Shown: positions 2,691 to 29,584 of the stretch, in pieces
Numbering within the stretch: position 1 is the stretch's first letter
How the letters are laid out: the number at the start of each line of letters is the position of its first letter
IMG/VR virus record: IMGVR_UViG_3300020173_000034
Coordinates: 1 to 32,294 of that record
Length of the DNA: 32,294 nucleotides
Source of the DNA: a virus
Direction: 5' to 3' (one strand)
The notes under the pieces: model-generated
Database searches by the model: none
Told to the model about the DNA's origin: nothing
Seen by the model: the letters and a program-made list of their open reading frames with translations, nothing else
Made by a program: the position numbers and the translations under genes

Positions 2691-3748
2691 TGATATACGA
2701 TTTAACAGAGGAGCAGAAAGAGGAGATTTTAAAGTTATTTAAAAAGAACCCAGATTTAATGTTTATAACCCGCAAAATATTTAATGATGAGACTATTGAT
2801 GGGAGGTCTAAACAGGGTAGGGCAGTAAGGAAGTTCTTAGCTGAACAAGATAAAAAAGCAAAAACAACCCTTGCCCCCAAAGTAGAGCAAATTCATTTAA
2901 CAAAAGAACAAAAAGAGTTCTTGATGACTGACAATATTGAGGTTGGCATGAATGCGCTAGAAATAGCCCGACTCACTTTTAAAGATCGTGATGTCCAGCC
3001 ATTAAGCATGAAGCATAGAATCATTGTTGATTTTTTAAAAACTTACAGGCCAGAGATTGTAGATGATAATGAGATTGTTACAAAAGAGAAGTGGACTCCA
3101 CCTAAATCTATAAACAGAGCTATTGTTAAGATAAACAACTTCTGTGGCACTACTTTAGAGGAACTAAACCTCCAAACAAAACAAAAAAAACTAGTAGAGC
3201 AATTAATTCTTTATTTTAAAAGCCCCCGTTTTAACCATTTTATTAATCAGTATGTTACTCTAGCTGACAGAGACTTGTTTGAAAGTGAGTTTGTCCGTGC
3301 TGTTTGGGACAAGCCAGACCTCACTAACGACGAATTGAATCTGTATGTGACTGTGTGTGCCAACTACGTGCGCCAAAAACACATCCAGCAGCGCATTGAC
3401 AAGCTTAATGCACTACTAGACGACCAAGACAATGAAAGGGACATCACAATGCGTCTGACGGAGATTATCAAGGCGACTAGTGAAGAGCTTAACCAGTGCG
3501 AAAAGCGGATTGAATCCTTGACAAAAGACTTGAATGGCTCTAGAACTGCTAGGCTGAAGGCTAAAGGAGAGGAGAATGGATCTATCTTTGCTTTGGTTGA
3601 AGCTTTCCAAGAGCGTGAAGAACGTGACCGTATGATCATGATGGCTGAACTTCAAAACAAATTAATTGAAGAAGAGGCAGATAGGCTTGAGAGTATGGAT
3701 GACTACAAAGCACGAGTGCTTGGCATATCTAAAAAAGAATTGTTATGA
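2690..3748 (+). CDS. Phage protein with HTH-like N-terminus and coiled coil; possible small terminase
   Basis: A 352-residue hydrophilic protein. The N-terminus (residues about 5-50, LTEEQKEEILKLFKKNPD, then RKIFNDETIDGRSKQGRAVRKFL) looks like a DNA-binding helical domain; a similar segment begins LTKEQKEFL at about 69. Residues about 225-350 are a long charged coiled coil. Its place two genes before the large terminase, with a DNA-binding N-terminus and an oligomerising coiled coil, makes a small terminase plausible but unproven. The start is clear: an AGGAGG Shine-Dalgarno at 2679-2684 is followed by ATG in a TAATG overlap with the sigma-like gene. The last 150 codons are richer in G+C and C-ending codons than the first 200, suggesting a mosaic origin. 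Confidence 0.75.
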   Translation: MIYDLTEEQKEEILKLFKKNPDLMFITRKIFNDETIDGRSKQGRAVRKFLAEQDKKAKTTLAPKVEQIHLTKEQKEFLMTDNIEVGMNALEIARLTFKDRDVQPLSMKHRIIVDFLKTYRPEIVDDNEIVTKEKWTPPKSINRAIVKINNFCGTTLEELNLQTKQKKLVEQLILYFKSPRFNHFINQYVTLADRDLFESEFVRAVWDKPDLTNDELNLYVTVCANYVRQKHIQQRIDKLNALLDDQDNERDITMRLTEIIKATSEELNQCEKRIESLTKDLNGSRTARLKAKGEENGSIFALVEAFQEREERDRMIMMAELQNKLIEEEADRLESMDDYKARVLGISKKELL

Positions 3749-4698
3749 GTGAATTTGTTTGCAGAGAGTGTGGTAAGTCTTTTGAGAAGCGTAGGGGTTT
3801 TCACGCCCATCTTAAAGCGCATAGTACTTCTATTGGAGAATATTATGTTGAGCATTATGCTAAAAGAGACTTATACACAAACGAACTTCTGCAATTCAAA
3901 AACTACGACCAATATTTCACAGAAGACTTTAACAATGTAGATAATTATTTATCTTGGTTAAAAACAACTTCCCCAATCAAAGCAAAAAACCACTTAATCA
4001 AATATACTCGCAAAAGATTTGAGAACAAGGATGTTAAGTTTACTCCACCAGACTTATACTACATGTTGGCTCAAATGCCCAATATTGATTATTACCGCAA
4101 AATGTGGAGATCTTACTCTGATTTTTCTGAAGATTTGGGCATAGAATCTTGGTTTAATAAAAACTTGCCCAAAAACTTTTGGGAACAAGACATTAAAGAT
4201 ATGCAAATATTTATCGATACTAGAGAACAAAAGCCTCTCAGGTTCGATAATAGTATGAAGAACAAGTTGGACTTCGGTGATTATACCGCAGCAGGAGAAT
4301 ATTATTCAAAAACCTTTATAGATAGAAAAGCTCAAGATGATTTTAGACAAACCTTTGGAAAAGATATTGAACGCTTCAGGCGCGAAATGGATCGTTGTGT
4401 CAAGTTTAATTCTTACATGTTCATTGTTGTCGAGTCATCTATTGAGAAAATCGAAGAAGACAACAAAGTATCGAAGTTTAAATCGAACTTAGGTTACTTG
4501 TGGCATAATGTTCGTAGTCTGATGATAGACTACCCAGAAAATATTCAATTTATTTTTGCATACTCAAGAGCAGGAGCAAAGAAAATTATACCCAAAATAC
4601 TATATCATGGCCAAAACTTATGGCATGTTGATGTACAATACCACTTAGAGAAAAAAGTTCATGGCATGGCAGAAAGGAAAACAGCGGTATCGAAATGA
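3745..4698 (+). CDS. C2H2 zinc-finger / XPF(ERCC4)-type nuclease
   Basis: A 317-residue predicted structure-specific DNA nuclease. Residues 6-26 form a classical C2H2 zinc finger (Cys6, Cys9, His22, His26). The nuclease domain begins at about residue 153: IFIDTREQKP (Asp158, Glu161), DFGDYT (Asp179) and IDRKAQDD (Asp193, Lys195). These follow the GDx(n)ERKx(3)D pattern of the XPF/Mus81 family with Asp replacing Glu in the ERK box. No helicase or helix-hairpin-helix tail is visible. It overlaps the previous gene by 4 nt and the terminase gene by 38 nt. XPF-type nucleases cut branched or flapped DNA, so resolving replicated DNA before packaging is a reasonable role; another terminase-linked cut is possible. 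Confidence 0.82.
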   Translation: MSEFVCRECGKSFEKRRGFHAHLKAHSTSIGEYYVEHYAKRDLYTNELLQFKNYDQYFTEDFNNVDNYLSWLKTTSPIKAKNHLIKYTRKRFENKDVKFTPPDLYYMLAQMPNIDYYRKMWRSYSDFSEDLGIESWFNKNLPKNFWEQDIKDMQIFIDTREQKPLRFDNSMKNKLDFGDYTAAGEYYSKTFIDRKAQDDFRQTFGKDIERFRREMDRCVKFNSYMFIVVESSIEKIEEDNKVSKFKSNLGYLWHNVRSLMIDYPENIQFIFAYSRAGAKKIIPKILYHGQNLWHVDVQYHLEKKVHGMAERKTAVSK

Positions 4699-8575: not shown

Positions 8576-10099
8576 ATGGATTTAAAAGATTTTGAGGTAA
8601 GTAGCTTTGATTGTAACATTAAAGCTCTCAAACAGACTGACTACGAGAAGTTCGGAGTATCAGAAGGATCTATCGCAGAGGCAGCTAAATCTCTACTTCC
8701 AGAAGATTTTGACCCGTCACAGAATGTTGATGTTTTGCCTGTTGTCTTCAACTTAGCTTTAGTTAATGAGTTTAACAAGAACGGAGACGGTATTGATTCT
8801 GAAACAGCCGTAGCAGCAGTAAAAAGATTTATTAATAAGCCAATTAACATTGAACATAAGAAGCATAAAATTGTAGGGCATATGATTAACGCTTCTTTCT
8901 CTGTTGATGAGTATGATTTTAAAGATAACGCTATTGAATCATACGCTGACAAAAAAGAGCCTTTTTATATTAATGCTGCTGGTTTAATTTACAAAAATAT
9001 TTTTCCAGAGTTAGCAGAAGCAATTGAAGAAGCTGCCAAAGAAGAAAATGAAGAATATCAAAGTATTGCTACTAGTTGGGAACTTGCATTTAAGAACTAT
9101 AAAGTCGTCTATGGATCTAATAGATTGGACGAGTGCCAAGTTGCCGAAGGTTCACAGGCAGAAGAGTTAAAGCAATATGTAAAGGGCTTTGGAGGCAAAG
9201 GTATGGACAAAGATGGAACTCCTGTACATCGATTAATTCATGGTGAAACTTATCCTTTAGGAGCGGCATTGACATATAAACCTGCTGCTAGAGTTAAAGG
9301 AGTTTATACTTCAGAACCAGAGAAAAGTGAAAACAATGTTGATAATTCTTTAGCAGAACAAGATAATATTAATATTAAAAATTCCCTAAACAATAAAAAC
9401 ACTGTAACAACAAACAAATTCGATATTTTTGATATGGATAAAGAACAATTCGAAACATTAATGACACAAGTTGCAGAAAGCGTAGCTTCCGTTGTCAAGA
9501 AGGACGATCAAGCCAGCTCCGTTGGCGAGATTATGCGTGATGCTCTTACTGAGCATTCCGAAAACTGGAAATCTAAAGTTCAACTTGAAGCAGAAGCCCG
9601 TGAAAAGGCTGAAGCAGATCTTGCTGAAATGAAAGCTTCTTTTGAAGCTGTTCAGTCAGAACTCACTTCTCTCAAATCTGAGATCGAAGCTCAAGCTGCT
9701 GTTGAGTTATTTAACTCTCGCATGAACTTTATCGACTCCACTTACGAACTTACTGAGGCAGAGCTTCAGTTAGTCGTAGATGAGTTAAAGGTTGTTGAGG
9801 CTTCTGAGGAAGCTTTTGATGCCTTTAAAGGGAAACTTTCTATTCTTTTTGCAAGCAAGACCAAAGAGGCCATTGCTGCTCAAGAAGAGGCTGTTAAAGC
9901 TAAAATCGAAGAAGCTATTGCTTCCAAGATGGCTGAAGAGGCTACTGAAGAGCAAGAAGAAGTTAAGGCTAGTGAAGATGAGCTGGAAGTTGAAGAGGTT
10001 GAAGCCCCTTCTATTCCTAACAACAACGCTGAGGCCTCAGAACAAATCTCTTTAGTTGAAAAACTAAAAGAAAACTTCTCTGTTGAAGTTACTAAATAA
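8576..10099 (+). CDS. Capsid maturation protease fused to scaffold
   Basis: A 507-residue two-part protein. Residues 1 to about 245 look like a head maturation protease: NIEHKKHKIVGHM with His94 and SIATSWELAF with Ser167 are the likely catalytic elements, as in phage serine proteases of the U35/S78-like groups; the third residue is unclear. An Asn-rich linker (about 250-283) leads to a helical, acidic coiled-coil half (about 287-507, rich in Ala, Glu and Lys) typical of internal scaffolds. The role would be to template capsid assembly, then digest the scaffold. Position between portal and capsid genes supports this. Codon use changes at the linker, and Met287 (ATG at 9434) could start a separate scaffold. 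Confidence 0.82.
   Translation: MDLKDFEVSSFDCNIKALKQTDYEKFGVSEGSIAEAAKSLLPEDFDPSQNVDVLPVVFNLALVNEFNKNGDGIDSETAVAAVKRFINKPINIEHKKHKIVGHMINASFSVDEYDFKDNAIESYADKKEPFYINAAGLIYKNIFPELAEAIEEAAKEENEEYQSIATSWELAFKNYKVVYGSNRLDECQVAEGSQAEELKQYVKGFGGKGMDKDGTPVHRLIHGETYPLGAALTYKPAARVKGVYTSEPEKSENNVDNSLAEQDNINIKNSLNNKNTVTTNKFDIFDMDKEQFETLMTQVAESVASVVKKDDQASSVGEIMRDALTEHSENWKSKVQLEAEAREKAEADLAEMKASFEAVQSELTSLKSEIEAQAAVELFNSRMNFIDSTYELTEAELQLVVDELKVVEASEEAFDAFKGKLSILFASKTKEAIAAQEEAVKAKIEEAIASKMAEEATEEQEEVKASEDELEVEEVEAPSIPNNNAEASEQISLVEKLKENFSVEVTK
9434..10099 (+). other. Possible nested scaffold reading frame
   Basis: An in-frame ATG at 9434 (MDKEQFETLMTQVAESVASV) lies exactly where the Asn-rich linker ends and the coiled-coil half begins. 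Translation from it would give a 221-residue scaffold without the protease, as lambda Nu3 is made inside gene C. Codon use becomes richer in C-ending and host-like codons from about this point. A loose late-type motif, CTGTAACAACAA at 9402-9413, lies 20 bases upstream. No Shine-Dalgarno is present. This is inference: the sequence permits the product but does not show that it is made. Confidence 0.4.
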
Positions 10100-18241: not shown

Positions 18242-21200
18242 ATGGCAGCTCCAATTAACCTTAACGCTAATCTTAACATAAATTCCTCTAGCATAAATGC
18301 GTCTGCGAAACAGGTGCAACAAGCTTTAGGCAGAATCACAGGACAAGCTTCAGAATTTCAAAAGTCTTTAGATGCTTCTACTGCTCGTGTCTTTGCTTTT
18401 GGAGCTACTACTAGTATTATTAATGGGATAAATCAGTCTTTTAAGAAGCTAATCAGTACTACTATTACAGTACAGGCTAAATTGACAGAGATAAACTCTA
18501 TTTTAGGCGCTGGAGCCTCAGAATTCAATAATTATAGAAACTCTATATTCAAAGTCGCTAAAAGTACGGGGCAGTCTTTTCAAACTGTAGCAGATGGAGC
18601 TGCTGAATTAGCTCGACAAGGACTTGGAGCTGCTGAAAGTGCTAAAAGATTAGAGGCTGCTCTAGTACTAACCAGAATATCTGGTTTAGGAGCACAGCAA
18701 TCAGTAAAAGCATTAACTGCGGCAATGAACGGATTCACATCCGCAGGCTTAACAGCAGAGCAAGTTATCAATAAGATCGTTGCTGTAGACACGGCCTTTG
18801 CTGTATCTGCTCAAGACCTTGCGGATGGATTCAGTCGGGCAGGTTCCACCGCCGAAGACGCTGGAGTTAGTTTCGAAGAGCTTCTTGGTTTAATTACAGC
18901 CGTAGAACAGAGGACTGCACGAGGAGGGGCTGTTATTGGTAACGCATTTAAATCAATCTTCACTCGTTTGAGTCGAGGTTCAACTATTGAGGATCTTAAA
19001 GCTCTTGGGGTAGAAATTAATGCCAATCAATCAGGAGTCCAAAAACTTCAAGCTCTTTCTAAAGCTCTGGAGCAAGTTGCGGACCCAACTGTAGCGAGTC
19101 AGATAAAAGAGTTAGCGGGTGGAGTGTTTCAAATTAACGTTGTTAGTTCTGCCTTAAAAGATTTAGGATCTGATGCTTCTATTTTTGCGAGAGCTACTGA
19201 AACTGGGTTAAATGCCACTAACGAAGCTACGAAAAAAAACACAGATTTAAATAAGACATTACTGGCTCAAATTAACAGTTTGACAGTGTCTATTACGAGT
19301 TTTGCAGAAAAGCTTGGTAGTATCACTTTTGGTCCTCTTTTGGAAAATTTAGTTTCACTAGCCACAAAATTATCAGAAGGATTGGATAGTGCTCTCGACC
19401 CAGAAAAAGGCAGTAAATTTATTCAAGGTATATTTAAAGTTATTGGTGGTTTTATATCTGGTCCAGGATTAGCTATCTTTACAATTGCTTTCGCTAAGAT
19501 ATTTAAAACAGTTATTAAGTTCGCCAAAGAAGGATTTAAGACTGTTATGGAAATAGGTTCCGCTACTGAAAGAATCAAACAAATTGAAGGTGGTCTGATT
19601 GGTTTATTACAAAAGGATGCAGGCTTAAGAGAGACACTTCTTAATACTACCGCAACTCAAGCTCAAAAAGAACAAGCTGTAATCTCTGCAATCCGACAAG
19701 AAAATATGTTGTTAGCTCAACAAGAATCTCTTGTTGCTAATATTTCTAATATAGCTAGACAAAGAGGAGTGACTGGATTTGATTCAAGCACAGGTTCCTT
19801 TAAAGGTAAAAGAGGAAGACGTTATGCTGCTGGAGGAGCTGGCGAAATGGAGCCTAACTTGATGACCGCCATGATGAATGAGGCTAGAGATGCTCCCGCT
19901 GGAGCAGTGCCTTATGTTACTAATTTTAGAGGTAGTCCTGCGGTGATGAACACTTCTGAAATGCAAGTAAAAATTGGTGGTAGAGAGGAAATACTTACGG
20001 CAGATCAAATTCCTAGATTTAACGGAGGTAGCGGAAAGAAGAAACAATATAAAGGGAAAAAAGCGTCAGCGAAAGGGACTGATATTAAGAATGATAAAGA
20101 ACTTGGAGATCGTTTCGTATTTTTGACTCCCCAAATAGACGAAAGAAGTTCTTTCGGTCCAATGACGGTGGATAAGACAAGGCACAAAGCGACTCATCAA
20201 ATTCATGGAATAAAGTCATCTCAAATTAAATCAATATCTGACAAGGAAGAAGATACACTTGAATCTAAAGTTAGAAATAGTTTGTTTAAAGAGGCTTCTG
20301 ATTGGACTTCAAGAATAAGGCCATTGGATAAATCTGCACCAATATCCGAAATAGAAAAAGGGTTTGATACTATTCGTGGGGCTAAAGGAGCTTTGAACGG
20401 TGCTATTGGATCGGCATTTGAAGTGGGCATAAGCAAGTCTTTAAAATATGAGGGTAGAGAAAGAGATGCGGGTGGTGATTTTGATGTTAGAGGAGGGCCA
20501 AATATCAGCAAAATTCAAAAGCTTTTTGGGATACGTCAGACTATTGGTGATTTTAAAAATTCTAGCTCTGATGGAAACAAGAGATCATTCATCAGAAAAG
20601 TTAGAAGAGAAAAAAATGCTGGAGCATTTACCGAAAACGAAGTTAGAGAACAAACTGCTAAAATTAGCGAAAGAGAAGGAATTCCTCTTAGAGTTGCACG
20701 TAGGAAAGCAACTAGCGCACAAAGAGCGAGCAGAAACCCTAGCAGTAACGCAAAAGGCACTATAAGTAATTCTAGGCTAGCTGCTAGAACTGGCATCCGC
20801 CGTTTTGCAAAAGGCTCTCCGACAAAATCTATTTCTGATGTCACAAACGCATCAGAAACTCGACAAAAAATAACTCTTGACTTATCAACAGTTCAGAAAG
20901 AAATAAAAAGAGTAAATGAAGCATTCGTAGAGGCTAGCAAATCAGCTAAAAAAAGTTCTGCGGGAATCAGGGCAGCAGCAGAAGTAAAAGCTCACTCTCT
21001 AAAAAAGCTAGGTGAGATTTATAAAATAAATACAAAAACAATAACCGCAGCAGCTAACGCCGAAAGAAAAAGAAATTCAATAATTTCAAGGGGCGTTAAG
21101 GGTGCTACCAAAAAAGGGATAGCAGGAATTAAAGCTTCGGGAGGTTTAGGGGTTGGATTTGCTCTTAGTGCGATAGGAACGGGTTTAGATTCTTTGGGTA

Positions 21201-22810
21201 GAGACGAAGAAGGTAATGAAACAGATAATGAATTTGGGAAAGCAGCTAGAGTTGCTGGCAAAACAGCCAGCTTTGCTGCAACTGGTGCAATGTTTGGAGG
21301 CCCCATAGGAGCTGCGGTTGGTGGAGCTATTGGACTTGGCTTGGGTCTTTTCGAAGAAAGTAAAAAGACAGACGAAAGAAAAGCTGAAGAAACAGACAAA
21401 AGAAATAAGTTAGACTCTAGAGTGGAAATCTCTAAAAGAATGCAGGGTAAGTTATCAGAATTTGGAGATATTGATCAACAATCTGTTCAATTGAAGAACT
21501 TGTCTTTCAGGACTGGAGATACTAGTCTAGATATTTCTAGTGAATTAAAAAGAGCAAAAGAGCAGTTAGATAAATCAGCAGATAGTGGAGAGGGATTTTA
21601 CGAAGCTCAAAAAGCTTATAATACTGTATCTAAGAAAGTAGCAAAATTGCTTGGTGATAAAGATGGGATTCAAGCACTTTATGCAGAAGGCGCTAAAATA
21701 AAATCAGAACTTAAATCTTTGATGAGTGAAAATGCTGGAGCTACCCTAAAGAAACAGTTGTCACAAGGGCAAGACGAAGTAGACACAAGATCAGCTTTAC
21801 TCAATCAGATGGTCGGATCAGACCCAGCAAGCCAAGCAAGAATAGAAGAACTTAAGAGAAAAAATCAAATAGACAATCAAATTTTGAAAACCGCTGGTGC
21901 AAAAGCTAATCAATTAGATTTGCAAGCGCAATTGTCTGGAACAACCGATCCAGCTCAAAGAGCGGAGATAGGCAAACAATTAAAGGAAGCTGGTAAAACT
22001 TTTAATGCAAGTGTCCGTCAAAGTGCTAATTTCCTAGTTAGCAAACAAATGGAAATCTCTAGACTTCTTGAGCAAGGAGCTAAAGAAAGAATTAATCTAG
22101 AAGGAAATGTTCTTAGAGGAGTATTTGCTGACATTACTAAAGGTGTGAGAGAAGGTCCATTTAACCTTGACGAAGTAACTCAGTTTGGGAAAGACTTTAA
22201 ATCAGCAAAAACTGATGAAGAAAAAGCTGAAATTATCGCTTCCTTCAATACTAATGTTCTTGGAAAGTTTGGAGGAAATAAAGCAATGCAAGATTTTCTA
22301 AGCAAGATGGCTGGATTTCTGCCTAATTCAGAGAATGATAAAAGTAACATGGTTACAAGCCAAAAAGAAATAGACCGCATTACAGGCAAAACGGTAGTCA
22401 CAGGAGGAGAGCGGCAGTCTGACAGAGATACGTTTATATCACTTGGTCAAGGAGGCGTAGCCAAAAAAGCTTTGAAAGACTTTAATGATAGGATGGCGGG
22501 GTTACAAGCAGAGTTTGATGCCGTATCAGAATCAATAAAAACTTTCTCTACAGAATTCAATGCTGGCCCTGTTGTAGACTCAGTAAAGGCTACGGCACGT
22601 AAACTTAACCAGTTCGCCTACGAGACTTCGAAAGTACCAGAAGCATCAAAAAAACTTGTAGACATTTCCAAGAGAGCAGTGGCATTAGCGGGCGTAGCGG
22701 AAAAAAATATTGCAGACCAAGAAATAAAACTAGAAGAGTTAAGAAGTAGGCTTGAAAAAGTCGAACTTGATAAAAAGAATATAACCAATAATCTGGGTAA
22801 TGGAGGGTAA
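18242..22810 (+). CDS. Tail tape measure protein with embedded nuclease-like domain
   Basis: A 1522-residue tape measure, the ruler that sets tail length. Residues about 30-390 match the TP901-type tape measure core (QSFQTVADGAAELARQGLG, GLTAEQVINKIVAVDTAFA, ARGGAVIGNAFKSIFTRLSR). A hydrophobic stretch follows at about 395-425 and another, Gly/Ala-rich, at about 965-1040, both candidates for membrane insertion during DNA ejection. Between them, residues about 525-615 are a Gly/Pro linker (AAGGAGEMEPN, GSPAVMNTSEMQVKIGGREE), then about 720-775 carry a PD-(D/E)XK-like pattern: Glu727, Asp746 in GGDFDV and Asp770/Lys772 in GDFK. The C-terminal third is coiled coil. At roughly 0.15 nm per residue the tail would be about 230 nm. 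The nuclease reading is an inference. Confidence 0.93.
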   Translation: MAAPINLNANLNINSSSINASAKQVQQALGRITGQASEFQKSLDASTARVFAFGATTSIINGINQSFKKLISTTITVQAKLTEINSILGAGASEFNNYRNSIFKVAKSTGQSFQTVADGAAELARQGLGAAESAKRLEAALVLTRISGLGAQQSVKALTAAMNGFTSAGLTAEQVINKIVAVDTAFAVSAQDLADGFSRAGSTAEDAGVSFEELLGLITAVEQRTARGGAVIGNAFKSIFTRLSRGSTIEDLKALGVEINANQSGVQKLQALSKALEQVADPTVASQIKELAGGVFQINVVSSALKDLGSDASIFARATETGLNATNEATKKNTDLNKTLLAQINSLTVSITSFAEKLGSITFGPLLENLVSLATKLSEGLDSALDPEKGSKFIQGIFKVIGGFISGPGLAIFTIAFAKIFKTVIKFAKEGFKTVMEIGSATERIKQIEGGLIGLLQKDAGLRETLLNTTATQAQKEQAVISAIRQENMLLAQQESLVANISNIARQRGVTGFDSSTGSFKGKRGRRYAAGGAGEMEPNLMTAMMNEARDAPAGAVPYVTNFRGSPAVMNTSEMQVKIGGREEILTADQIPRFNGGSGKKKQYKGKKASAKGTDIKNDKELGDRFVFLTPQIDERSSFGPMTVDKTRHKATHQIHGIKSSQIKSISDKEEDTLESKVRNSLFKEASDWTSRIRPLDKSAPISEIEKGFDTIRGAKGALNGAIGSAFEVGISKSLKYEGRERDAGGDFDVRGGPNISKIQKLFGIRQTIGDFKNSSSDGNKRSFIRKVRREKNAGAFTENEVREQTAKISEREGIPLRVARRKATSAQRASRNPSSNAKGTISNSRLAARTGIRRFAKGSPTKSISDVTNASETRQKITLDLSTVQKEIKRVNEAFVEASKSAKKSSAGIRAAAEVKAHSLKKLGEIYKINTKTITAAANAERKRNSIISRGVKGATKKGIAGIKASGGLGVGFALSAIGTGLDSLGRDEEGNETDNEFGKAARVAGKTASFAATGAMFGGPIGAAVGGAIGLGLGLFEESKKTDERKAEETDKRNKLDSRVEISKRMQGKLSEFGDIDQQSVQLKNLSFRTGDTSLDISSELKRAKEQLDKSADSGEGFYEAQKAYNTVSKKVAKLLGDKDGIQALYAEGAKIKSELKSLMSENAGATLKKQLSQGQDEVDTRSALLNQMVGSDPASQARIEELKRKNQIDNQILKTAGAKANQLDLQAQLSGTTDPAQRAEIGKQLKEAGKTFNASVRQSANFLVSKQMEISRLLEQGAKERINLEGNVLRGVFADITKGVREGPFNLDEVTQFGKDFKSAKTDEEKAEIIASFNTNVLGKFGGNKAMQDFLSKMAGFLPNSENDKSNMVTSQKEIDRITGKTVVTGGERQSDRDTFISLGQGGVAKKALKDFNDRMAGLQAEFDAVSESIKTFSTEFNAGPVVDSVKATARKLNQFAYETSKVPEASKKLVDISKRAVALAGVAEKNIADQEIKLEELRSRLEKVELDKKNITNNLGNGG

Positions 22811-25954: not shown

Positions 25955-27330
25955 TGAGTGATACGGGTTTATATTTTGTAATGCAAGAGAGTCTTGGTTC
26001 TAACCAAAGATTGTCTGCTTTTTATGATTTTAATTATTCTTCTGATGAGATAGATATATTAGGCGCTGGGTCAGATTTTACAGGAGTTCTGCTTAATAAT
26101 GAATTAGTAAATCAACCTTCATTACATACAGGTTATGTTTTAGGTTCATATGAATCTTCTGAAATCGATGCTAACAATAATCTTCAAACTTTATTGGCTA
26201 ACAACAAGCTTCCGTTGACTTCTGGAAACTTGAGAATACCTTTAGATGGTTTAAATGCCAATGATATTTCAGTCATTATAGATTTTGAATTCGAAGGTGC
26301 TGTAGATGATGGTGTTTTATTGGGCTGCTTTAAAAAAAGAAAAGAAAGTGCAAGTTTTAATTCTTTTGATAACTCTGAAGGATTCAATATAGGAATCACT
26401 GATAGGGGTCATTTGTTTTGCCAAACCTATGGTCCAAATGGAGATTCTGTTGATGTCATTACAGATATTGAGTTATCTAAAAGAAATGTTATTGGTGTGT
26501 CTGTTTCTGAAAGTACTTTATCTTTAGGGACTTTTGATTACTTTAATAATATTGTACGTTCTGTTGATATACCAGTTGATGGAGATTACATTTACCAAAC
26601 TGGATTCTTGAATTTTGGTGGATCAGATAATTATTTTAGATCTGAAAGCAATTCAGAAGAAACATTTAGTGGTAGTTTACATAATCTTGCTTTGTTCTCT
26701 GGATATTTGGAGCCTAGATTTCTCAAGCAACTTTCAGAAGGTATTCTTGGTGATTATTTTTATAACGGTCCAGTCGAATCTGAATCTCAGAGAGTGACAG
26801 GTTATAGCGATGTTATTGTATATAAAACAGGAGTTACTGGTTATGAGTATACTTCTACTGGATCTCTAACAATTGCCACAGGTAGAGAATACTTTACAGG
26901 CAGTTTTTCTACGAATTCTTCGGAAACGAAGAAGGAGGGAGAACGTTTTTACAAATACTATACGTTAAATAACGGAGATACTGAGACATTTTATAAAGAA
27001 GAAATTGGCCAACTACATTCTGAATCTGGCTACATTTATTATCCTACAGGAGAGGATGCTTATGATACTTTGGGTTTAAATGACATATCGGAGTCAATCC
27101 AAACTTACGTGGAAACTACTGGTATTGAACAAGGGTCTGCTACAATAAATCTTTATGGTAGAAATGCTCTCACAGGAATGTTGAACGAAGTTAGTGGGGT
27201 AACTACTACTGCTCTCTACGAAACAGTGTCAAGTTTCTCAACACCTTCTTCTGGCGTAAATTTAGGTCATGAATCAGAAGATTTTAAAAAGAATTTTATT
27301 TATTACATAGGAACAAGAGATGAATTTTAA
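25954..27330 (+). CDS. Tail-tip protein with LamG-like lectin domain
   Basis: A 458-residue beta protein. Residues about 100-265 (NDISVIIDFEFEGAVDDGVL, then GFNIGITDRGHLFCQTYGPN, RNVIGVSVSESTLSLGTFDY and SGSLHNLALFSGYL) fit a concanavalin A/LamG-type sandwich, a fold that binds carbohydrate or protein in tail fibres and tips. The C-terminal half is Gly/Thr/Tyr-rich (VTGYEYTSTGSLTIATGREY), possibly an elongated stalk, and a short stretch FYKYYTLNNGDTETFYKEEI may be a hinge. It overlaps the next gene by 11 nt. A host-surface binding role is inferred from fold and place. Confidence 0.65.
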   Translation: MSDTGLYFVMQESLGSNQRLSAFYDFNYSSDEIDILGAGSDFTGVLLNNELVNQPSLHTGYVLGSYESSEIDANNNLQTLLANNKLPLTSGNLRIPLDGLNANDISVIIDFEFEGAVDDGVLLGCFKKRKESASFNSFDNSEGFNIGITDRGHLFCQTYGPNGDSVDVITDIELSKRNVIGVSVSESTLSLGTFDYFNNIVRSVDIPVDGDYIYQTGFLNFGGSDNYFRSESNSEETFSGSLHNLALFSGYLEPRFLKQLSEGILGDYFYNGPVESESQRVTGYSDVIVYKTGVTGYEYTSTGSLTIATGREYFTGSFSTNSSETKKEGERFYKYYTLNNGDTETFYKEEIGQLHSESGYIYYPTGEDAYDTLGLNDISESIQTYVETTGIEQGSATINLYGRNALTGMLNEVSGVTTTALYETVSSFSTPSSGVNLGHESEDFKKNFIYYIGTRDEF

Positions 27331-29584
27331 TTACATTTTATCAACTGGAGACTCTACTATTTCAGGAAGTTCTTATAGTATTCTTGAAACAAATCAACTA
27401 GCATTCAAGCAAAATGAGTATTCTTCAATAAAATATTACATGTTGGAGGAAGATGGTAGAGCTAAGGACAACTCTTTTCATTTTGACTCTTCTATTATTG
27501 AAAGTGGATTTTCTTCTTTGGTTTCATTAAATTCTCAAACTTTGGTGGAGGGAAATTTTGAAGTATCTACTGGTAGAAATCAATATTACTATACAATTAC
27601 TGATAGTGGTAATTATACGATAGATATAGAAAATTCAGATAATAAATTTATTTTTGACTCACTTATACCAATTGATGATGATTCTGTTATATATTACGAA
27701 GGTAGAGATTATTCAATACCATTTATACAAGAAAAAACTGGAATTGCTATAGGTTCTTGGAGTGATTCTTTAGATGATTTATTGACTTCGGTTGATTCTG
27801 TAGACACAACCGCTGACATCGCAGAATTACAGGAGAAGTATTTTTTATTTTTTAATGGACAAAAAATATCAGATTTTTCTGCCGCCACTGACTTGGACGA
27901 TGCTTCAGGTATTATGTTTGCAATGCCGAGAAAAACAAAAATAAACGATGTCTATGGTTCTGCCGCAGATATTTATGGTAGCGGATTTATTGATAATCAA
28001 GTTGATTTTTATTTGAATGGTATGAGGCAAGACCCGCAAGATGCTTTGCAGTTATATACTGGGGTGGGTATGATACAAACGGGCGTTAGTTCTTCTATTT
28101 CGATAAAAACAGTTTCTACTGATAACTTTTTAGTGGGAGAAGTGTTAAATTTAGAAAGAAACGATCAAGTCTCTAAAGATGTAACTGTTGAAGAAGCTGA
28201 ACCGATTCATGGCATAGAGGTTGAAGAAGACATTTTTGAACAGGGTGATACAATTGATACTACTGTGATAGGGGCAGCGTCAAGATCTTTTAGATCAAAC
28301 AGGAAAAACTTCTTAAAAGTTTCGGACAATAGTCTCCTTTCTATAGGAGATGGATCAAATGACTCTGAGTTTTCTACGTGTTTTTGGGTTAAAATTCCTC
28401 AAAATGGAAGGTTTCTTTTTCAAAAGGGTGGATTCGGTAAAGAAGAGTACGTACTACAAGTATACGCAGATTATATTTCGTTCGAAATATATGATCAATC
28501 AGGATTCCAATCAAGGATACAGGCAAAAACTTTAGAAGGTATTGACTACAATATATGGAATCATATTTCAATTACTTATGATGGAACAGCAAGTCAAAAT
28601 GGAATTGACATTTACGTAAATGGAATTAGTTACCAATGTGATAAATTTGAAAAAGGATCGTATTCTAGTTCGAACGACTTAGATGGAGAACTTTATATTG
28701 GATCATATTATCCATATACTTCAATGCTAACACGTTATTCTGACTGTAAAGTAGCTGACTTTAGATTTTATGATTATCAATTAACTTCTGCTAACATAAC
28801 TGATTTGTCAGACTATAGTAGCACTACTAATCCAACTACTGGTCCCATTTTATGGTTGTTCAGAAACGAGGATAGTTTAGATGATTATAGCGGCAACGAA
28901 TTAGACGCAACTGAAGGTAACTCTAATTATAGCACGTTTTTCTCAACTGACGGTCCTTTTGTTACTTTTTCCATCAAAACTGATCTTTATGAATGGTGGC
29001 AAAATGCAGATTCTGCGGGAAAACATGCTTCTATTAATATAGGGACAGCTGAGTCTACTATTAGTGGACCTAATAGTTTGAATGCATGGCATCAAACTGC
29101 TAGCGGTTCTACTACTTATACTCCAGCAAGTCTTCCCGTTGAACCCAAAACCTTTGCGGCCATTTGGAGAATGGATGACGGAGCAGATTTGGATTCTATA
29201 TTTGGAGAGATTTTAACTACAGAGGGTGGTAAGACTAGTTTTGAATTAGATACAATTGGCTCTAATGATACAATATTGTGGAAACATAATGGATCATCTC
29301 CTTTAGATAGGAGATTTTCTGAATTAGGGATAAATCTTGATGAATGGAATAGCATGGTTTATACTATTTATGATTCTGGACAAATAAAATTATGGATAAA
29401 TGGGGAAAATGTTCCTTATAATTATTATGAAGAAGGCGTACTATCTCAAAATGTGGGTTCTTTTATAAAATTAGGAGAAGATGCTTCTTTTGCTGTATGC
29501 ATTATTTCTAGAAGAGAATGGAGTCAGACAGACGTAAATTCATTTCATAATAATGGAAACTTTGTAAAATACGAAGATTTTTAA
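27320..29584 (+). CDS. Large tail-tip/fibre protein with two LamG-like domains
   Basis: A 754-residue beta protein. The N-terminal ~310 residues include FYLNGMRQDPQDALQLYTGV (about 232-251), a type of stretch common in phage fibre and baseplate proteins. Residues about 320-485 form one LamG-like domain (STCFWVKIPQNGRFLFQKGG, WNHISITYDGTASQNGIDIY, VADFRFYDYQLTSANI) and about 610-745 a second, more divergent one (TFAAIWRMDDGADLDSI, WNSMVYTIYDSGQIKLWING). Such domains often bind surface glycans, so this is a receptor-binding candidate. A Val/Glu-rich acidic segment (about 285-312) separates the first domain from the N-terminus. It is translated from an ATG overlapping the previous gene. Confidence 0.7.
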   Translation: MNFNYILSTGDSTISGSSYSILETNQLAFKQNEYSSIKYYMLEEDGRAKDNSFHFDSSIIESGFSSLVSLNSQTLVEGNFEVSTGRNQYYYTITDSGNYTIDIENSDNKFIFDSLIPIDDDSVIYYEGRDYSIPFIQEKTGIAIGSWSDSLDDLLTSVDSVDTTADIAELQEKYFLFFNGQKISDFSAATDLDDASGIMFAMPRKTKINDVYGSAADIYGSGFIDNQVDFYLNGMRQDPQDALQLYTGVGMIQTGVSSSISIKTVSTDNFLVGEVLNLERNDQVSKDVTVEEAEPIHGIEVEEDIFEQGDTIDTTVIGAASRSFRSNRKNFLKVSDNSLLSIGDGSNDSEFSTCFWVKIPQNGRFLFQKGGFGKEEYVLQVYADYISFEIYDQSGFQSRIQAKTLEGIDYNIWNHISITYDGTASQNGIDIYVNGISYQCDKFEKGSYSSSNDLDGELYIGSYYPYTSMLTRYSDCKVADFRFYDYQLTSANITDLSDYSSTTNPTTGPILWLFRNEDSLDDYSGNELDATEGNSNYSTFFSTDGPFVTFSIKTDLYEWWQNADSAGKHASINIGTAESTISGPNSLNAWHQTASGSTTYTPASLPVEPKTFAAIWRMDDGADLDSIFGEILTTEGGKTSFELDTIGSNDTILWKHNGSSPLDRRFSELGINLDEWNSMVYTIYDSGQIKLWINGENVPYNYYEEGVLSQNVGSFIKLGEDASFAVCIISRREWSQTDVNSFHNNGNFVKYEDF

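Follow-up and report, generated by a model that had tools for sequence, protein, structure and literature searches.

Results

The tape measure protein gene and its surroundings

The window, by which we mean the whole 32,294-base virus record that was analysed, encodes a tape measure protein (TMP) in its largest open reading frame (Table 1). Identification of this protein as a TMP was indicated by its matches to Pfam and PHROG families together with the presence of hydrophobic stretches. Residue numbers given below are those of the TMP, residue n of which starts at window position 18242+3(n-1). A hydropathy scan placed the first hydrophobic stretch next to the conserved N-terminal core and the second well downstream, and between them lies a discrete domain, which is where a nuclease-like insert had been placed in an earlier note on this DNA.

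Genes neighbouring that of the TMP were mostly without family matches. Elsewhere on the + strand of the window were genes for a PhoH-like protein (966-1640, PHROG 170, E 2e-60), for a protein weakly matched to Lar-like restriction alleviation proteins (1649-2023, E 6e-4) and, immediately upstream of the terminase gene, for a 317-aa protein (3745-4698) that begins with a sub-threshold C2H2 zinc finger and contains an ERCC4-type nuclease region (PHROG 3490, E 1.5e-10). A further gene (27320-29584, +) encodes two concanavalin-like (Laminin_G_3) stretches and is likely that of a tail or receptor-binding protein. With respect to tail type, a sheath family was sought in 16 records and gave one sub-threshold match only.

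Table 1. Features of the TMP gene and of its nuclease-like domain, with positions in the window.
Feature	Position	Strand	Evidence
TMP gene, 1522 aa	18242..22810	+	Pfam PhageMin_Tail E 2e-24 (above curated cut-off); several PHROG families named 'tail length tape measure protein'
Conserved TMP N-terminal core, residues 1-390	18242..19411	+	80-84% identity to relatives; dN/dS about 0.06-0.08
First hydrophobic stretch, residues 396-428	19427..19525	+	Hydropathy scan
Exchangeable cassette as visible in the window, about residues 601-800 (right edge near 800-830)	20042..20641	+	4-fold-site identity to L002-L004
Nuclease-like domain, about residues 620-795	20099..20626	+	Iterated HMM, 87-sequence alignment; AlphaFold2 pLDDT 85, pTM 0.79 on residues 601-810
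Gly723, one helical turn ahead of Glu727	20408..20410	+	G in 87/87
Glu727, candidate catalytic acid, long helix	20420..20422	+	83 E, 3 D, 1 Q (n=87); model helix 114-133 = residues 714-733
Asp748, candidate metal-binding acid	20483..20485	+	D in 87/87
Asp770-Phe-Lys772, candidate (D/E)xK motif on strand	20549..20557	+	60 D + 27 E = 87/87; K 87/87; model strand 168-171 = residues 768-771
Lys786, helix after (D/E)xK motif	20597..20599	+	76 K, 11 Q (n=87)
Second hydrophobic, Gly-rich stretch, residues 1016-1037	21287..21352	+	Hydropathy scan

Distribution of the domain

Four close relatives were found in IMG/VR with the domain as query, and with the N-terminal region of the TMP as query 66 loci were found with one profile and 388 with a broader profile, the best 80 of which were used. 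An iterated HMM of the domain then identified 113 open reading frames, every one of them a TMP. Related sequences in TMPs of other environmental phages, as mentioned in the earlier note, were thus found both at the profile loci and among the 113 domain-bearing frames. All of these relatives are metagenomic, and the term aquatic, as used here, is our reading of the source collections.

Of the 114 TMPs exceeding 1100 aa in length, 102 had the domain. The 12 long TMPs without it (L106, L107, L109, L114, L115, L117, L122, L129, L137, L142, L147 and L154) are large, most being about 3,000 aa, and form a separate clade; in the corresponding part of one of these giant proteins (L109) were other segments and many IPNY-type linkers. 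Seven further TMPs considered as candidates for lacking the domain (L010, L012-L014, L038, L040 and L044) were rejected as such since each carries a diverged domain with the signature intact. Variants of the signature in diverged TMPs included QE..FDL..GEVK and FE..MDF..EAK.

A search of about 700 Bacteroidota genomes with the domain gave two TMPs in one metagenome-assembled genome (MAG) and otherwise false positives, the non-TMP matches, of which two resembled outer-membrane proteins and one a tryptophanase, being rejected as members. Two different domain-bearing contigs (L157 and L159) were both binned in one 4.1-Mb Flavobacteriaceae MAG. Placement of two contigs in MAGs named Flavobacteriaceae and Flavobacteriales gives a weak indication of hosts in these groups, binning of viral contigs being unreliable.

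Comparison of the domain with Pfam, PHROGs and PDB sequences, either as single sequences or as profiles of 45 to 77 members, revealed nothing beyond chance, and tblastn searches of 50,697 phage records with seven members (that of the window and six divergent ones) revealed no relative. A tblastn match to a Mannheimia major tail protein (E 0.2) was weak and was judged to be due to chance. Since neither an isolate phage record nor a curated family was matched, the domain is missed by current annotation.

Conserved residues of the domain

Translation of window positions 20399-20557 (+ strand) gave GAIGSAFEVGISKSLKYEGRERDAGGDFDVRGGPNISKIQKLFGIRQTIGDFK, corresponding to TMP residues 720-772 (G720 to K772). 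This segment contained the residues from which an E, D, DxK active site had been proposed (i.e., E727, D746, D770 and K772) as well as D748. The bare pattern is uninformative since shuffled sequence has as many, the number of loose E-D-(D/E)xK sites being 10 in the window TMP versus a mean of 9.2 in shuffles. Rather than the bare motif, the feature not attributable to chance is conservation among relatives. Thus, in a set of 87 non-redundant TMP domains (median pairwise identity 18%, about 190 aligned positions), only seven columns were at least 80% conserved, namely G723, F726 (82 of 87 domains), E727, D748, D/E770, K772 and K/Q786 (see Table 1 for the remaining counts). Of the residues proposed earlier, E727 (E or D in 86/87), D/E770 (87/87) and K772 (87/87) were upheld by this comparison while D746, which had been taken as the middle acid, was Asp in only 25 of 45 sequences and gave up this place to D748, which was invariant (87/87).

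Signatures in the wider set were EDDK (68), EDEK (35) and DDDK (4), the other rows representing off-by-one alignments or cut contigs. The distances of 21 residues from E to D and 22 residues from D to DxK are in the usual range of the PD-(D/E)XK superfamily, and interchange of D and E beside an invariant K is the hallmark from which this superfamily takes its name. As judged from the alignment, the seven conserved columns include every residue expected in a PD-(D/E)XK active site.

Evidence of purifying selection on the domain was noted in the close set, where dN/dS was 0.17-0.31 for the domain as opposed to 0.57-0.70 for the downstream linker. Amino acid identity to three relatives was 80-90% for residues 701-750 and about 10% for residues 851-950.

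Predicted structure

Confident AlphaFold2 models were obtained both with the window sequence placed first in an alignment with 45 sequences (pLDDT 85.4, pTM 0.79) and with a compact member (L080) placed first with 77 sequences (pLDDT 88.6, pTM 0.82). Each model began with strands at the N-terminus and a helix; next came the long helix bearing Glu, then the short strand at Asp, another helix, the strand bearing DxK and a helix bearing K/Q. Foldseek found no match to either model in the PDB and none to the first (window) model among viral models. The domain is thus confidently predicted to fold, but a restriction-like fold was not confirmed by any match in the PDB. In both models the E helix leads to D748 without the intervening strand of the canonical PD-(D/E)XK core. 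The N-terminal strands may complete the sheet in place of this missing strand, and the topology of the domain may be permuted or new. Probabilities from hhalign were below 1% against the known PD-(D/E)XK families UPF0102, Mrr and HSDR_N, a comparison of low sensitivity since these families scored 84.6, 32.6 and 1.4% among themselves. Since the predicted fold is without a PDB match, we do not claim proven membership of the PD-(D/E)XK superfamily for this domain despite the presence of the signature.

Exchange of the domain between phages

The most striking property of the domain, which goes beyond anything in the earlier note, is its wholesale exchange as a cassette. In 271 pairs of TMPs, the N-terminal region was more than 75% identical while the domain was less than 30% identical. 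Extreme examples were provided by L082 and L083 (99% identity in the N-terminal region, 16% in the domain), L120 and L123 (99% and 20%) and L030 and L031 (98% and 17%). When aligned as DNA (16.6 kb), the last pair was 89.6% identical in the first 9.2 kb and 88.1% identical in the last 6.5 kb, the two parts being separated by a single 880-bp hole without similarity (L030 positions 9156-10035) that corresponds to TMP residues 597-890. No second variable island was found near the cassette in this comparison, and hence no linked immunity gene was seen in this pair. The left edge of the swapped block was alike in other pairs of phages, at about TMP nucleotide 1790-1920. Cassette edges nevertheless vary, since some pairs diverge beyond the nuclease-like domain; the divergent block of L041 and L065, for example, extends over TMP residues 521-880 and is followed by a short block of 85% identity.

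Single-linkage clustering over automatic alignments of these very diverged sequences gave 30 domain types at 40% identity, a count that shifts with the threshold (30% identity gave 10 types and 50% gave 51), and seven of the 30 types were shared by two or more of four N-terminal backbones. In the window itself, identity to three relatives (L002-L004) at 4-fold sites, of which there were 10-30 per block, was 0.2-0.7 for residues 1-600 and 0.7-0.93 for residues 651-800, after which it fell. Since silent sites of the cassette are closer to those of L002-L004 than are silent sites of its flanks, the cassette of the window has moved between lineages. A swap in any one pair could be mimicked by mosaic assembly, but swaps were seen in several pairs that are independent of each other and come from different samples. 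Thus, a fixed slot of the TMP holds the domain as a polymorphic cassette open to exchange.

Discussion

TMPs are usually viewed as rulers and conduits that sometimes carry cell-wall hydrolases. The domain described here resembles members of the PD-(D/E)XK superfamily in its E...D...(D/E)-x-K signature with D/E interchange, in the K/Q of the next helix, in the spacing of these residues and in their predicted placement (helix for E, strand for DxK). It differs in that sequence, profile and Foldseek comparisons revealed no similarity to any member, in that the E helix leads to D without a strand in the usual place, and in being embedded in a TMP.

The nearest precedent is Tme, a TMP-related effector of the contractile injection system of Streptomyces davawensis, which has a C-terminal EndA-like endonuclease with DRGH and H-N-N motifs (PMC11126660). 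Both are proteins of a phage or phage-tail-like particle in which a TMP or TMP-like part, with its hydrophobic stretches, is fused to a nuclease or nuclease-like domain. However, the EndA-like domain of Tme is C-terminal and belongs to a contractile system whereas the E-D-(D/E)xK domain of the window TMP is internal, belongs to a phage and is polymorphic and exchanged; moreover, the window TMP had no Pfam match to the C-terminal DNA/RNA non-specific endonuclease (DRGH motif), and the motif class is different. TMPs with peptidoglycan-hydrolase domains, such as that of mycobacteriophage TM4 (PMC1796659), likewise carry an enzymatic domain that acts at entry, although the enzyme is a cell-wall hydrolase rather than a nuclease. 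The swapping of many alleles with one catalytic logic on a constant carrier is reminiscent of polymorphic toxin tips and of the diversification of restriction enzymes, in contrast with which no adjoining immunity or methyltransferase gene varied with the cassette in L030 and L031. In the literature searched, largely outside the subscription journals, we found no description of a phage TMP with a PD-(D/E)XK (E-D-(D/E)xK) domain, nor was there mention in titles and abstracts of hypervariable or swapped TMP domains or of this exchange of cassettes. To our knowledge, the peptidoglycan-hydrolase domains of TMPs have not been described as exchangeable cassettes either.

The invariant residues make it likely that the domain has nuclease activity. 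On balance, we favour the view that it is a metal-dependent nuclease carried in the tail, that it is probably brought into the host together with the TMP and that conflict has driven its diversification. As such, a PD-(D/E)XK-type enzyme with an active site formed by E727, D748, D770-x-K772 and K/Q786 would be built into the TMP as an interchangeable cassette and would enter the host at the start of infection. Delivery from the tail is suggested by the accepted picture of model siphophages, in which the TMP leaves the tail along with the genome during infection and arrives at the inner membrane. The TMP of lambda, for example, contacts the inner-membrane protein ManYZ during injection (PMC13190303), and Tme, with its C-terminal endonuclease, is a second precedent for delivery. 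The delivered nuclease would cut nucleic acid in the host cell, whether that of the chromosome, of resident elements or of a rival phage, and the cassette would diversify by exchange of alleles as targets, inhibitors or opposing defences change, a role in conflict being suggested by the polymorphism of the domain. Points that count against a delivered nuclease are the lack of Foldseek and profile matches and of the canonical strand, as described above, the finding that no immunity gene which might account for self-protection co-varied with the cassette in L030 and L031, and the narrowness of the tail tube, inside which a folded domain would have to be stored.

The sharp replacement of this block only, between near-identical phages, and the occurrence of the same domain types on different backbones would also be expected of a selfish, homing-like cassette that cuts TMP alleles without its own version during co-infection and spreads by repair or gene conversion rather than through a benefit to infection. 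Nucleases are located at boundaries of phage genetic exchange, as described in one report (PMC10448857). We nonetheless consider this explanation unlikely since no empty allele was found, the slot being filled in all TMPs of this backbone whose sequence could be followed across it, and since the TMPs that lack the domain form their separate clade of mostly 3,000-aa proteins. Furthermore, the domain is fixed inside the TMP reading frame, being neither free-standing, intronic nor an intein, and matched no homing-enzyme family of Pfam.

Replacement of whole blocks in a fixed slot would also fit tuning to the host by an adaptor module that binds an inner-membrane or periplasmic partner for DNA entry, with diversity tracking host range and the acidic and lysine residues being structural, or metal-binding without catalysis. 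There is precedent in that regions of the TMP set the inner-membrane protein requirement of siphophages, as illustrated by the A304V substitution of lambda and the divergent region at residues 300-400 (PMC13190303). Such a role is rather improbable for the present domain because a binding module would not be expected to hold E, D, (D/E)xK and K/Q invariant at 16-20% identity.

That the enzyme acts in assembly or packaging, i.e., in the producing cell or virion, for instance on DNA ends at the neck in the way reported for gp4, the head-completion nuclease of T4, is more improbable still. A virion-associated nuclease of the restriction enzyme fold is indeed required for packaging in T4-like phages (PMC7824862), but a function of this kind should stay conserved within a lineage, and what was noted instead were 16%-identical alleles in phages that are 88-99% identical. 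Finally, a flexible hydrophilic insert with a chance motif, although in keeping with the frequency of the bare pattern in shuffled sequence, is hardly credible given the invariance of the signature in 87 diverged relatives, the purifying selection and the confidently folded models.

A broader view of the favoured explanation, which we put forward tentatively, is that the domain may represent a widespread new class of virion-delivered nucleases with a PD-(D/E)XK-like site in a possibly permuted or new topology, held in a fixed slot of the TMP and exchanged as cassettes in the manner of polymorphic toxins, and that, just as the phage DNA enters, it may serve aquatic phages as a weapon against elements of the host or against rival phages. 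If so, a nuclease in the TMP would arrive in the cell together with the genome, ahead of any expression of phage genes. The constancy of the candidate catalytic residues in a sequence that is otherwise swapped wholesale suggests a phage-delivered nuclease engaged in an arms race, and the exchange of a whole allele with nothing else changed in 16 kb provides a natural experiment on the target of such a nuclease and on resistance to it.
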